A stretch of DNA of 26,350 bases. Origin: a virus. Below the pieces are notes generated by a model. That model did not search any database and was not told the origin of the DNA. It saw only the letters and a list, made by a program, of their open reading frames with translations. Both the position numbers and the translations under genes were made by a program. Shown here piece after piece: positions 16,523 through 22,758 of this stretch. Where the stretch lies: positions 1-26,350 of IMG/VR virus record IMGVR_UViG_3300023235_000114; one strand, given 5' to 3'. How positions within the stretch are numbered: the stretch's first letter is position 1; each line of letters starts with the position of its first letter.

Positions 16523-16773
16523 CATGCCTCCTTTAGCTGCCGTATACGCGCATCAGTCTCAGAAATGGCATCTTTGCACTTAGCATTCTGATAATCCAGC
16601 TTGGCCTCTAGCCATTCCTTCTCTGAGTAGAATCTATTAAGGATCTTGTCACAGTCTTCACACACCTCAACGTATTCACTATACACATCAAACCTCACGT
16701 TCTTGTGAGGGCATTCGAGTTGCTTCACACGAATCTCTAGATTTCTCAATTTGAACATTGTCTTCTTCTTCAT
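16522..16773 (-). CDS. Small zinc-binding coiled-coil protein (83 aa)
   Basis: ATG 16773 (second ATG of ATGATG; GGAGG 5 nt upstream). A lysine-rich N-terminus (MKKKTMFKLRNLEIRVKQLE) is followed by a zinc ribbon CPHKN...CEDCDKIL with four ligands (C, H, C, C). A charged helix ends the protein (YSEKEWLEAKLDYQNAKCKDAISETDARIRQLKEA). No family assigned. The final KEA codons plus TGA encode the next gene's ribosome-binding site. Confidence 0.62.
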   Translation of the reverse strand: MKKKTMFKLRNLEIRVKQLECPHKNVRFDVYSEYVEVCEDCDKILNRFYSEKEWLEAKLDYQNAKCKDAISETDARIRQLKEA

Positions 16774-17624
16774 CATGCCTCCTTTGGAACGAAGTGAATG
16801 AACGGTTCTTCGCTGCCGTCTGGCCGCATCAGATGTCCGTTCTCGGCTCGGATGCCGTATACGGTTTTCGCCAGTTTGTACAGGCGATCACCGATAACCA
16901 TCTCGTCGCGGAGCTCTTGCTCGTATGCCGTCCGATAGTAGACTTCAGGCCGCGACCCTATCCGGTTGACTGTTCCTCGGATCTTGACGTAGAAGTATTC
17001 TCGCTTCGATCCATGCCCAGATTCCTTCAACAGACGCCGGTAGTCTGACACAGTAGTTCCATCTTGCCACTCGACGCCGTTATCCAGACTCTTAGCCCAC
17101 AGTGACGCCGCGCCAATCAGCCGTCGCGTGTCTAGTCCTTTCGACGCAAGGCATTCCCGCAGCGTCCTAGCGTCTGGATCCGTAGCGGCAACCACCTGGC
17201 CTAGTCTGTATACACGTTCGGCGATAGTTGAGTCCAGCATAGCGAACGATGATAGCTGCGTGAGTATCTCTTCGCCTTCTTCGGCGTCGTGTCGCAGATA
17301 AAACCACAGCTTAGACGTATCAACCTTGCCTACGCCATGCCCAAGAACATCCTGATTGTCAATCACACTAAGAACTCCATTGGATCTATCCCACTCAGCT
17401 ATCACAAGCTGGCCAGTCTCGACCATAACGTGTACATGTGCCTGTAGCGTTATGCAATTTTCCACTACATCTTTTTCATCGCTGCCACCAACGCCAAGCG
17501 GACGAACGTGATGGACTTCAAGATGTCTCCTGCCTTCCTCGGATCTGCCGTCATATCCCGTGATCTGACAACGATTACCATCTAGCCTCAACGCCTCCTC
17601 GCGTACTGCGTTACTCCGTGACAT
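16773..17624 (-). CDS. HNH endonuclease-domain protein with C-terminal unknown domain
   Basis: 283 aa. The start ATG 17624 (MSRSNAVREEALRL) is chosen because AGAGG lies 6 nt upstream; the upstream ATG at 17630 touches the ribosome-binding site. Residues 5-75 form an HNH module: GNRCQITGYDG, LEVHHVRPLGVGGSD, and VENCITLQAHVHVMVETGQL, with the usual His-His and Asn/His positions. The second Cys pair is absent, so structural zinc may be incomplete. The remaining 200 residues (TLRECLASKGLDTRRLIGAASLWAKSLDNG..., VKIRGTVNRIGSRPEVYYRTAYEQEL) are not known to me. It overlaps the ribbon-helix-helix gene by 14 nt and shares its promoter. Confidence 0.75.
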   Translation of the reverse strand: MSRSNAVREEALRLDGNRCQITGYDGRSEEGRRHLEVHHVRPLGVGGSDEKDVVENCITLQAHVHVMVETGQLVIAEWDRSNGVLSVIDNQDVLGHGVGKVDTSKLWFYLRHDAEEGEEILTQLSSFAMLDSTIAERVYRLGQVVAATDPDARTLRECLASKGLDTRRLIGAASLWAKSLDNGVEWQDGTTVSDYRRLLKESGHGSKREYFYVKIRGTVNRIGSRPEVYYRTAYEQELRDEMVIGDRLYKLAKTVYGIRAENGHLMRPDGSEEPFIHFVPKEA

Positions 17625-17766
17625 TCTCATCCTCTAGTGCGATCCAGAATCGTATCGCCTTCCTGATTGCCTCTGTCCGGTTATCTCGCGAATCGAGATA
17701 TGCTATCACGTCAGCGTCTGTCTCAACGTTGAGCGAGAAAGGGAACTGTCTAGTCACTGCTGGCAT
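17611..17766 (-). CDS. Ribbon-helix-helix DNA-binding protein (51 aa)
   Basis: ATG 17766 with AGGAGGCAAC upstream, stop TAA at 17611. Sequence: MPAVTRQFPFSLNVETDADV, then IAYLDSRDNRTEAIRKAIRFWIALEDENVTE. This is an Arc/MetJ-like layout: a beta strand (RQFPFSLNV), helix A (DADVIAYLDS), the turn RDNRTEA and helix B (EAIRKAIRFWIAL), close to the frequent pattern 'i.l....D.dvi..Ld...nRseaIR.Ai'. It sits directly behind a good promoter and probably represses it. The partner HNH gene follows in the same transcript. Confidence 0.75.
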   Translation of the reverse strand: MPAVTRQFPFSLNVETDADVIAYLDSRDNRTEAIRKAIRFWIALEDENVTE

Positions 17767-18230: not shown

Positions 18231-18696
18231 CGTTCTCCACAACGCGCTCAACGAGCTTCTTGCCACAGTAATGGCAGAACTCCATATCATTGTCGGATGG
18301 TGTTCCGTCGTTCAAGGAGAAGTCATGGCCGCAATCTGTCTGCCACATGTCATTGGAATCGTCCGCCGGGTCATTGAGCCATTCGCACTCTTTAGGCTCG
18401 GTCGGTGGGGAGATGGCGGCTTCGCAAGTATCTATACTGCAAGCAAGCGCGTTGAACCACTCCGCAACTTCTGCGAGAGATTCCTCGCTATGCCCCGTAA
18501 CAGTCTTCACCCATTCTGCATGGGCACGGATAAGCACTGTGCTAGAATTGCCAGCATCGTCATCCACAACACCGATAAGCGCCTTATCCTTCGCAGCCAG
18601 CGCGGTTTCTATGGCTGTGAGTTCTTCCTTCGCTGCAAGTGCATCACGGATATCAGACCCATTATCTATGCACCTCTGAATCTTCTCAGTCTCCAT
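18223..18696 (-). CDS. Zn-finger-containing hypothetical protein
   Basis: 157 aa from ATG 18696 (METEKIQRCIDNG), which overlaps the HNH stop (ATGATG); AAGGAGGA is 4 nt away. The N-terminal half is alpha-helical (RDALAAKEELTAIETALAAKDKAL). Then a Pro-rich linker leads to the C-terminal zinc ribbon WQTDCGHDFSLNDGTPSDNDMEFCHYCGKKLVE, a module (C.H...C.YCG) found at the end of many small phage proteins. Function unknown. Confidence 0.65.
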   Translation of the reverse strand: METEKIQRCIDNGSDIRDALAAKEELTAIETALAAKDKALIGVVDDDAGNSSTVLIRAHAEWVKTVTGHSEESLAEVAEWFNALACSIDTCEAAISPPTEPKECEWLNDPADDSNDMWQTDCGHDFSLNDGTPSDNDMEFCHYCGKKLVERVVENDE

Positions 18697-19247
18697 CATT
18701 CCTCCTTCAACCACGCCCAGTTTCTTCCTGTAGAGATATGGCAAATCGTCGCCCGACAAACATGAAACCGTTTAGCAATTGACGCCTGGGTTTCTTTCGC
18801 TAGCAACCGCCGCCTGATTTCGTGGACCTTCTCTTCCGTAAGTACCGCGCTCCCGTGTCGTTCTCCGTGGACAGCAACTTTCAATCCATTGCGATAGGCG
18901 TGCAATGCGTTTTCTGACTGAGTCACGTATTCAAGATTTGTAGCTGCATTGTTTGGCTTAACGCCATCTCGATGATTGACTTCCTTCCCGTCAGGACATT
19001 CACCAAGAAACGCTGCTGATACAAGTCGATGAACCTTTACAGTGTGCTGACTCCCATCCTTATGCAATCCAACGTCCATATAACCACAATCGCCTAATGA
19101 CTCTTTCAGGATTCTTCCTACAAGCGCGCCTGGTCCTTTCTTCATCCTACGGATACGCCCTAGGTTGCTGACATCGTAGATGCCTTCATAGCCAACAACT
19201 GGCAACCATCGTTCGTTTTGGATAGATGTGTCTTGTGTCTCTGTCAT
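18696..19247 (-). CDS. NUMOD4-HNH homing endonuclease
   Basis: 183 aa from ATG 19247 (MTETQDTSIQNERWLPVVG) with GGAGGTAGAGAT upstream. NUMOD4 at about 12-35 (ERWLPVVGYEGIYDVSNLGRIRRM). HNH core at about 68-115: VHRLVSAAFLG, KEVNHRDGVKPNNAATNLEYVTQSENALHAYRNG, with the His-Asn-His triad visible. C-terminal HTH at about 135-178 (LTEEKVHEIRRRLLAKETQASIAKRFHVCRATICHISTGRNW), for target binding. It is free-standing; no intron halves are evident around it. It has its own promoter and a structured leader that could mask its ribosome-binding site (separate entry). Confidence 0.9.
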   Translation of the reverse strand: MTETQDTSIQNERWLPVVGYEGIYDVSNLGRIRRMKKGPGALVGRILKESLGDCGYMDVGLHKDGSQHTVKVHRLVSAAFLGECPDGKEVNHRDGVKPNNAATNLEYVTQSENALHAYRNGLKVAVHGERHGSAVLTEEKVHEIRRRLLAKETQASIAKRFHVCRATICHISTGRNWAWLKEE

Positions 19248-19334
19248 ATCTCTACCTCCTACAGTAGAATTGCAGGAGCCTTTCCCGTCTGTAGGACGGG
19301 CACAGAGTAGGCCCACGAGTCCAGCTCCCTGCAA
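19248..19334 (-). promoter_or_regulatory. Structured 5' leader of the NUMOD4-HNH gene (element B)
   Basis: Outer stem: TTGCAGGGAGC (19324-19334) with GCTCCTGCAA (19270-19279), 10 bp with a one-base bulge. Inner hairpin: CCCG (19297-19300) with CGGG (19284-19287), extendable to CCCGTC/GACGGG. Its loop TCCTACAG (19289-19296) is perfectly complementary to CTGTAGGA (19257-19264), which contains four bases of the AGGAGG site (19255-19260). An alternative helix GGGC/GCCC competes with the inner hairpin. Element A at 22645 has the same architecture with a different loop pair. A possible translation-masking pseudoknot; no RNA family recognised. Confidence 0.65.
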
Positions 19335-19338
19335 CATG

Positions 19339-19367
19339 ATTATACCACACCCACAGTAGGATCACAC
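19339..19367 (-). promoter_or_regulatory. Extended -10 promoter for the NUMOD4-HNH gene
   Basis: TGG followed by TATAAT (19339-19344) is an extended -10 promoter. The -35 position at 17 nt (19362-19367) reads GTGTGA, only 3 of 6 matches. The -10 ends 4 nt before the TTGC that opens the structured leader, so the transcript should start at the base of that stem. The same 4-nt spacing occurs at 22725-22730. Confidence 0.65.
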
Positions 19368-21284: not shown

Positions 21285-22106
21285 TTACGACTCCTCGAAT
21301 ACGTCTGCGAACTCTTCAGCGCCTCTAGTCAGCGCGCGGTTAGTGCCGTTGCCGTTGCTCGATGGCTTCTTGCGCCCACTAGCATCCCACTTCTTCGCCG
21401 CGTTCAAGTTGTTCTCAAACTTCGATGGCCTGAATAACGTCTCAGGCGTCAGGTACTTGTCGAAGTCTGTGCCGATCCACTCGCTACACTTGAAGTCGAT
21501 TACCAGCTTGCAGTTATCAAACGTGAATAGTTCTGCCAATCGTCCGCCGATGTTCTTTCTTGATGCTGCGCTGTGGCGAAATGATGAGCTTGCTTTCTCG
21601 TTGAGATAGTCAATCACTGAATCGGTTTCTGAGAAACTTTCAATCATACCTTTACCATTACTCTTACTGCTACCCTTACCTGTACTTATACTTGTGAGGC
21701 TTAGAAGCCCCTTACCAGCACCTTCATAAGGGCTTGGAAGTTCAATCCTATTCAACACTCTAGAAACATTCTCTGAGAATCCTTCTCTTGCCCTCAGCAA
21801 TCGCATGATTCCTAGATGCGCCTTATTCTGTTCGTTGAGATCCTTATTGCCCTGGAAGCTGATGAATCGCGTAATCCATATACGATCACCGTTCACTTCG
21901 TAGCACCTCTCAAGCCCCTTCATAGCTTCTAGGATGTCTTGATGCTCGACGCCTATCTCGAAGGCCGCAGCCTCCAAGTCTATCTCCCAGAATCCCGCTA
22001 TGTCGCAGCGGTCGTATAGGTATAGGCACATGAGTTTTGCAGTTGGAGTGAGCTTACGAAACCACGGATCATTCCATTTCTCTGAGTCGGTGAATCGCTT
22101 AGGCAT
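21285..22106 (-). CDS. Replisome organiser / replication initiation protein
   Basis: 273 aa from ATG 22106 (MPKRFTDSEKWNDPWFRKLTPTAKLMCLYLYDRCDIAGFWEID), overlapping the HNH gene end by 8 nt. The first 90 residues look like a winged-helix DNA-binding head. A Ser/Gly/Lys-rich linker follows (about 130-160). The C-terminal domain (VIDYLNEKASSSFRHSAASRKNIGGRLAELFTFDNCKLVIDFKCSEWIGTDFDKYLTPETLFRPSKFENNL) matches the 'conserved phage C-terminal' Phg_2220_C type: 'i..YLNek....fr.t......i..rl.eG.t..d...vId.K...W.....m..YLrP.TLF...kFe.yLn'. It is next to the helicase loader, as in other phage replication modules. It would bind the origin. Confidence 0.8.
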   Translation of the reverse strand: MPKRFTDSEKWNDPWFRKLTPTAKLMCLYLYDRCDIAGFWEIDLEAAAFEIGVEHQDILEAMKGLERCYEVNGDRIWITRFISFQGNKDLNEQNKAHLGIMRLLRAREGFSENVSRVLNRIELPSPYEGAGKGLLSLTSISTGKGSSKSNGKGMIESFSETDSVIDYLNEKASSSFRHSAASRKNIGGRLAELFTFDNCKLVIDFKCSEWIGTDFDKYLTPETLFRPSKFENNLNAAKKWDASGRKKPSSNGNGTNRALTRGAEEFADVFEES

Positions 22107-22644
22107 TGTCCACCGCCATTCGATCAGGGAAGTTAAGCGTTGCAAACTCTCCGAATAATTCACAGGCCATTATGTCGCGCTCGGCCGCCGCCTGCTCTGC
22201 ATCTACGAAGTATCCTATATGGATGTTTTTGTAGTTATGCATGATGCTTGCTCGCCATTGCTGCTTGCCTTTATGCCAATACACGCCGTAATATCCAGAC
22301 TTTGATTTAGGCCCATTGTTGATGTTAGCTGCGTTCTCGCTGTGCGAACATACTCGAAGATTACTCTTGCGGTTGTTCAGCGCGTCTCCATCTATATGGT
22401 CAATGCACATATCTGGAGGAGGATTCATTATCTCTCTGTGTAGATAAACGCCTTCCTGCTTTTGTCCTTCCTTGATGTATGCTGTGCGTTTTACGGCTCT
22501 TGGAGTCCCGTCGCCTTTCTTTAGGCAGCACCATCTATGCTTTGATATGCGCTGGTAATCTTCTGAATCTATCAGCGCAAATAGGCCGTGCGGTAGTTGG
22601 ATTCTTCTGACGTGGTTATCATCAATCTCTTTCTGCGTTCCCAT
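22099..22644 (-). CDS. HNH-AP2 homing endonuclease
   Basis: 181 aa from ATG 22644 (MGTQKEIDDNHV); the GAGGTGAT site covers the ATG at 22650, so the second ATG is used. HNH core at about 65-105: VYLHREIMNPPPDMCIDHIDGDALNNRKSNLRVCSHSENAAN, with His-Asn-His visible. AP2-type DNA-binding domain at about 117-172: SKSGYYGVYWHKGKQQWRASIMHNYKNIHIGYFVDAEQAAAERDIMACELFG. Free-standing mobile gene, with its own promoter and leader RNA of the same type as the NUMOD4-HNH gene, although the protein architectures differ. It overlaps the replisome organiser, so it sits precisely at a gene border. Confidence 0.9.
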   Translation of the reverse strand: MGTQKEIDDNHVRRIQLPHGLFALIDSEDYQRISKHRWCCLKKGDGTPRAVKRTAYIKEGQKQEGVYLHREIMNPPPDMCIDHIDGDALNNRKSNLRVCSHSENAANINNGPKSKSGYYGVYWHKGKQQWRASIMHNYKNIHIGYFVDAEQAAAERDIMACELFGEFATLNFPDRMAVDNA

Positions 22645-22725
22645 TCCCATCACCTCTATGATTAGGTTTGCGAGGGGGCCGCCGATCATAGACGGCCTGG
22701 GAAGGCCCGGAGACCCCTCCCGCAA
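22645..22725 (-). promoter_or_regulatory. Structured 5' leader of the HNH-AP2 gene (element A)
   Basis: Outer stem: TTGCGGGAGGGG (22714-22725) with CCCCCTCGCAA (22668-22678), 10 bp with a two-base bulge. Inner hairpin: GCCG (22693-22696) with CGGC (22681-22684), closing an 8-nt loop TCTATGAT (22685-22692). The loop is perfectly complementary to ATCATAGA (22655-22662), which runs into the AGAGGTG site. A competing helix GGCCT/AGGCC (22703-22707 with 22694-22698) overlaps the inner stem. Same layout as element B at 19248. Confidence 0.65.
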
Positions 22726-22729
22726 CTCA

Positions 22730-22758
22730 AGTATAACACGTCACGACGTTGAATCCAA
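22730..22758 (-). promoter_or_regulatory. Extended -10 promoter for the HNH-AP2 gene
   Basis: TGT followed by TATACT (22730-22735) with TTGGAT (22753-22758) 17 nt upstream. The -35 keeps the TTG; the -10 matches 5 of 6. The -10 ends 4 nt before the TTGC that opens the leader stem, exactly as in the promoter at 19339. Confidence 0.6.

Follow-up and report, generated by a model that had tools for sequence, protein, structure and literature searches.

The window, by which we mean the whole stretch of 26,350 bases of viral DNA analysed here (an IMG/VR virus record), has the majority of its genes on the minus strand. Two short leaders, elements A and B, lie on this strand, each directly before an HNH gene (Table 1). 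The earlier note on this DNA had given the two genes different architectures, HNH–AP2 behind A and NUMOD4–HNH–HTH behind B; NUMOD4–HNH_3 with weak HTH matches holds for the B gene and HNH_3 for the A gene, with the AP2 match of the latter below the cut-off. A third HNH gene (HNH_2; positions 16773–17630, minus strand) has no such leader. Both HNH stop codons overlap the start of the next gene (18690–18705 and 22095–22110, minus strand), and downstream of B the C-terminal KEE codons of the HNH gene (AAGGAGGAA) serve as the Shine–Dalgarno sequence (SD) of the next gene. We considered the stop/start overlap as a special feature and rejected it: such overlaps are common in these dense genomes and one is found, for example, behind the initiator gene that follows a related leader (L304, see below).

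The leaders share a scaffold made of a P1 stem of about 10–12 bp, a small internal loop, a P2 stem of 3–5 bp and a P3 hairpin of 4–6 bp with its loop. Between P3 and P2, the 3′ side carries a bulge of 9–10 nt with an 8-nt strand (PKa) that is complementary to a second strand (PKb) just 3′ of P1, which overlaps the 5′ half of the SD. The outer stems of A (TTGC-[GG]-GAGGGG / CCCCTC-GCAA) and B (TTGCAG-[G]-GAGC / GCTC-CTGCAA) do open with TTGC, as the earlier note had said, and the 8-nt complementarities that it had reported are exact in both elements. It had erred on the position of the first strand, which it had put in the loop of an inner CCCG/CGGG hairpin. A and B both have this hairpin, which in some members vies with P3 and elsewhere fails; it shows no covariation, and the fold built on it is rejected, with 63.6% of cells paired and 293 of 500 shuffles as good. 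When the pseudoknot strands are kept free, ViennaRNA returns the same P1/P2/P3 scaffold in all six leaders folded, and A, B, L016 and, nearly so, L003 already adopt it in their minimum-energy folds without constraint. A dinucleotide-shuffled leader has such an 8-nt match with a probability of about 0.002 for A and about 0.007 for B, and the ribosome-site match of either copy taken alone is only suggestive.

Table 1. Features of elements A and B and of the genes behind them (window coordinates).
Feature	Position	Strand	Sequence	Basis or remark
Element A, whole leader	22645–22725	minus		
A, −10-like box	22730–22735	minus	TATACT	4 nt before P1; aligns with TATAAT of orthologous leader L304
A, P1 5′ strand	22714–22725	minus	TTGCGGGAGGGG	covariation
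A, P2 5′ strand	22708–22710	minus	CCG	constrained fold
A, P3 hairpin	22694–22707	minus	GGCC-ttccca-GGCC	fold
A, PKa	22685–22692	minus	TCTATGAT	3′ bulge, between P3 and P2
A, P2 3′ strand	22682–22684	minus	CGG	
A, P1 3′ strand	22668–22677	minus	CCCCTCGCAA	covariation
A, PKb	22655–22662	minus	ATCATAGA	overlaps SD
A, Shine–Dalgarno	22651–22657	minus	AGAGGTG	
HNH gene downstream of A	22099–22644	minus		HNH_3, E = 2.5e-9; AP2 weak, E = 0.0027, below cut-off
Element B, whole leader	19248–19334	minus		
B, −10-like box	19339–19344	minus	TATAAT	4 nt before P1; one of only three TATAAT on the minus strand of the window
B, P1 5′ strand	19324–19334	minus	TTGCAGGGAGC	covariation
B, P2 5′ strand	19315–19319	minus	CTCGT	covariation
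B, P3 hairpin	19298–19314	minus	GGGC-ctactctgt-GCCC	covariation
B, PKa	19289–19296	minus	TCCTACAG	3′ bulge
B, P2 3′ strand	19284–19288	minus	ACGGG	covariation
B, P1 3′ strand	19270–19279	minus	GCTCCTGCAA	covariation
B, PKb	19257–19264	minus	CTGTAGGA	covers AGGA of SD
B, Shine–Dalgarno	19255–19260	minus	AGGAGG	
HNH gene downstream of B	18696–19247	minus		NUMOD4, E = 1.2e-12; HNH_3, E = 4.6e-14; HTH matches weak

Six further distinct leaders were found in related IMG/VR phages, giving eight in total (A, B, L003, L016, L101, L102, L299 and L304). A protein search with the product of the B gene led to an HNH gene that is 52% identical, in a phage of 112.9 kb; its leader (L003) follows the same plan, with the knot TCCTACGG/CCGTAGGA carrying one compensated change. 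The second HNH gene of this phage is preceded by L016, which has another version of the knot (CATCTCATGG/CCATGAGGTG). We also scanned 2.9 million viral contigs with a DNA pattern (a −10 box, TCCTAC.G and C.GTAGGAGG), which gave seven stretches, six of them before HNH genes, including the new leader types L101 and L102/L103. The pattern itself demanded the box and the greater part of the knot, so for these two features L101 and L102 cannot count as independent evidence; their independent support is limited to the stems and the gene association and, as their knot sequence is identical to that of B, they add no covariation events to the knot.

The earlier note had proposed a covariance-model search for further homologues. 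Our models contain no pseudoknot pairs, so that the knot in the leaders they find tests a pairing that lies outside the models. The first model (R1), built without A, recovers A with 20.1 bits (E = 0.006 in 44 kb), and the second (R2), built from six leaders, finds L299 (34.1 bits) and L304 (27.4 bits), in phages G007 and G012. The knot is paired at 8/8 positions in A, at 8/8 in L299 (one G–U) and at 7/8 in L304. All family members belong to a single group of related phages, and three of these phages (G000, G002 and G007) carry two copies each. Scans of IMG/VR with a relaxed B-type knot pattern and with the A-type and L016-type patterns returned chance matches and known members only. No match was obtained with a third model (R3), built from all eight leaders, on about 190 further loci, nor when A and B, each taken with its gene, were compared with phages by blastn, and the HNH relatives from cultured phages and bacterial genomes included no leader of the family. 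A search with R1 of 398 bacterial genomes from a single phylum and of six others had no match and is uninformative.

We compared the alignment of the eight leaders with 500 shuffles and with slid alignments. The alignment was fitted to the stems and is thereby biased towards them, but not towards the knot. In the knot, 63 of 64 cells are paired (98.4%), compared with 71% in shuffles and 33–56% in slid alignments, and the covariation score is 0.857, compared with 0.272 in shuffles; neither the score nor the percentage paired was reached by any of the 500 shuffles. Both sides have changed in six of the eight knot pairs, with 17 doubly changed cells, a count of pairs that is less extreme, being reached by 19/500 shuffles. 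In the six-leader alignment, for which the model likewise contained no knot pairs, pairing of the knot is 100%, and 6/8 pairs are again changed on both sides. The helices of the hairpin covary too: over the whole fold, 90.7% of cells are paired (38–49% in slid controls) and 22 of 29 pairs have changed on both sides, a number that no shuffle attained. The compensatory changes that the earlier note had read, from two copies, as the mark of a conserved RNA structure are thus borne out by eight. A and B belong to a real, covariation-supported family of phage leader RNAs.

The family is not restricted to HNH genes. Six of the eight leaders precede such genes, so that the earlier description as a leader of HNH genes was right for most copies and too narrow for the others: behind L299 lies a ParB-like gene (ParB_N match, below the cut-off), and behind L304 a replication-initiator-like gene, with an HTH_36 domain and an RP-C match that is weak, and then a DnaC-like gene. 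The element is an operon leader of the phages, which HNH genes share with others. A and L304 align across the promoter, the leader and the first codons and are orthologous; both head an initiator–DnaC module, with an HNH gene between leader and module in the window. The simplest reading is that the HNH gene moved in behind a pre-existing phage leader, which would make this a traceable case of a selfish nuclease gene placed behind the leader of a replication gene. The likeness also runs about ten codons into the coding region (from window position 22642 and L304 position 10085; MGTQKEIDD versus METQDDIEH), as if the HNH gene had taken over the start of the initiator gene; the B product starts with MTETQD.

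A TATAAT or TATACT box stands 4–8 nt before P1 in all six leaders measured. L003 and L016 have a perfect TTGACA-17-TATAAT, and the promoters of the window are weak by consensus: A has a weak −35 match (TTGGAT, spacer 17), and its −10-like box was not called by the consensus scan, which found no sufficiently good −35 match for B. With the box just before P1, this stem should lie at or near the 5′ end of the mRNA, and each transcript from the adjacent promoter should contain the whole knot. Neither A nor B has an intrinsic terminator (a G+C-rich stem followed by a T run), which makes transcriptional attenuation unlikely.

Our preferred reading, to which we give a probability of about 0.75, is that A and B represent a family of cis-acting 5′ leader pseudoknots that occlude the SD and would lower translation of the first gene. 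If the adjacent promoter is used, the message would begin at or near the first base of the P1 hairpin. The bulge strand PKa would then pair with PKb, just 3′ of P1, over the 5′ half of the SD, and the pseudoknot would compete for the SD with the 30S subunit, which pairs there through its 16S rRNA. This competition is expected to reduce translation of the first gene, in cis and on every transcript from the adjacent promoter, and a protein or another signal might relieve it. Judged from the sequences, such a clamp on the SD is likely. Before HNH genes, keeping expression low would make a selfish nuclease less costly, and the leader would be a regulatory part of the phage that HNH genes acquired or moved in behind. 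A conserved pairing does overlap the SD, as the earlier note had proposed in speaking of a pseudoknot that would hide the ribosome-binding site. A point against the clamp is that PKb reaches only part of the SD, GG(T) remaining free in most members.

The stability of the knot bears on whether it is a permanent state. According to ViennaRNA, the knot helix contributes −7 to −14 kcal mol−1 in the six leaders folded, and the pseudoknot is favoured over the best nested fold by a small margin of about 1.6–8 kcal mol−1 before any pseudoknot penalty, so that occupancy of the knot could be low. A competing local hairpin with the SD in its loop can form in B, L102, L003 and A. We may wonder whether the pseudoknot is one state of a conditional switch, opened by a phage protein or a host condition, perhaps towards this SD-in-loop hairpin; the factor may be the HNH protein itself, a replication protein or another RNA-binding protein. 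The marginal stability and the mutual exclusion of the two structures are what such a switch would show, and two copies per phage would suit a small regulon. The alternative hairpin is however poorly conserved, autoregulation by one product is unlikely as the downstream proteins have no domain in common, and there is no aptamer-like core: the sole conserved unpaired residue within the hairpin is a T in the P3 loop (7/8 rows), which also argues against a metabolite riboswitch. We regard the switch as possible and no more than a tentative proposal. Somewhat more speculative still is its extension to a class of switchable SD-clamp riboregulators that would control a small regulon (in each phage about two operons, with replication-initiation and ParB-like genes among their members), respond to a phage or host factor, and be parasitised by HNH homing endonucleases inserted directly behind them.

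Stems at the 5′ terminus can stabilise bacterial mRNAs, and P1, which starts 4–8 nt past the −10 box and so at or very near the 5′ end, could mainly shield the message from decay, with the SD pairing being secondary. This protection would leave unexplained the covariation of the knot, which is as strict as that of P1 or stricter, and we consider it unlikely as the main function.

An inverted-repeat operator in the DNA, bound by the HNH protein or another DNA-binding protein, would also give paired sequences, and the proteins concerned have modules that bind DNA (NUMOD4, and HTH and AP2 as weak matches); I-TevI, for instance, represses its own promoter (PMC2988022). We find this very improbable. 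G–U accounts for 46% of the non-Watson–Crick cells, compared with 18% expected from composition (p = 4e-5), which favours a fold of RNA over a DNA palindrome. Moreover, P1, P2, P3 and the knot make up a single nested-plus-knot fold, the knot meets the SD in every case, and two members serve genes without an HNH domain. Least probable of all is a timing device of the kind known for I-TevI, I-TevII, I-TevIII, segB and Aeh1 mobE (PMC2988022), in which the structure forms only on read-through transcripts and an internal promoter yields unstructured late ones, as the −10-like boxes here lie before P1 and not inside it, and transcripts from them would carry the whole knot.

A leader pseudoknot that occludes the SD would fit a known theme. 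Sequestration of the ribosome site is an established control of phage homing endonuclease genes (PMC2988022; PMC3014915), for which the documented cases are mostly simple hairpins of T4-like phages. The T4-type hairpins also place a leader structure over the ribosome site of a homing endonuclease gene, but they are simple hairpins on read-through transcripts, with a late promoter placed so that the late mRNA lacks the structure, as for T4 I-TevI (PMC2988022). The A/B family, by contrast, has a pseudoknot conserved across several genes, a promoter-like box before the structure, and members before non-HNH genes. It brings in, from a distant group of phages, a pseudoknot family that is supported by covariation and has no entry in Rfam. 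The T4 gene 32 leader has a pseudoknot tied to translation control (PMC3014915), located 67 nt upstream of the start codon, where it nucleates gp32 binding and does not itself pair with the SD, whereas the A/B knots do. A 2010 review regarded it as perhaps still the sole viral RNA pseudoknot in translational autoregulation (PMC3014915); a phage knot that sits on the ribosome site itself would offer a second case on which to test this remark, and we do not claim autoregulation for A and B.

The earlier note had not recognised the fold, and neither does Rfam 15, in which the whole window has no match of any kind at E ≤ 1, HEARO included. HEARO is likewise a structured RNA beside an HNH gene, but the A/B element is an mRNA leader overlapping the ribosome site. 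Searched alone, A and L102 gave chance-level matches only, far below the gathering scores, and the related loci gave weak matches to unrelated families, except for int-alpA (RF02996) in phage D6E. This family is the nearest in logic, in that its P1 surrounds helices together with an unpaired segment whose complement lies 3′ of P1. It differs in having two side-by-side hairpins, conserved CUAG and CGAAAAG segments, and its pseudoknot strand in the loop of the second hairpin, whereas A/B has stacked P2–P3 and its strand in a bulge. The CUAG and CGAAAAG joining segments and the two adjacent hairpins are absent from all eight aligned leaders, and neither the window nor the member-carrying records match RF02996 (gathering score 35.8 bits) at E ≤ 1; the same search gave 31.2 bits in D6E and 27.9 bits in MetMV. 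We found no pseudoknot leader of HNH genes in the literature searched, and the family appears to be undescribed, an earlier description elsewhere being possible.

Several other leaders met in these searches deserve mention. The int-alpA-like RNAs of D6E (L152:517–580) and MetMV (MK170447.1, 16873–16939), both below the 35.8-bit cut-off, lie directly before an HNH gene and before an apparently truncated HNH–AP2 remnant, respectively. In several int-alpA loci of Pseudomonadota (L359–L388), the second hairpin has a loop whose complement occurs once or twice downstream of P1, in some cases as an SD-like stretch (for example CCTTCA/TGAAGG), a pseudoknot that is not in the Rfam structure line. L294 and L285, before small coiled-coil-like genes, have a TATA box, a P1 with a pair of hairpins, and a loop, CCTAC, that is complementary to the SD GTAGGAGGT; they follow an int-alpA-like logic without matching RF02996. 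Before the HNH genes of three Actinomycetota loci (L159, L164 and L165) there is a −10-like box, then a similar hairpin whose inner stem is of the GGTG/AACACC type, and after it a CTGACC segment; these are possibly another type of HNH leader. The HNH leaders L040 and L081 have knot-like SD pairings of their own (CCAATAC/GTATTGG and TTAATCCT/AGGATTAA) in different folds. In a wider set, a complement of at least 7 nt to the SD region occurs in 11 of 41 intergenic HNH leaders, compared with 9 of 152 leaders of other genes (Fisher p = 0.0005, or 0.008 without the family members; a rough test on selected loci).
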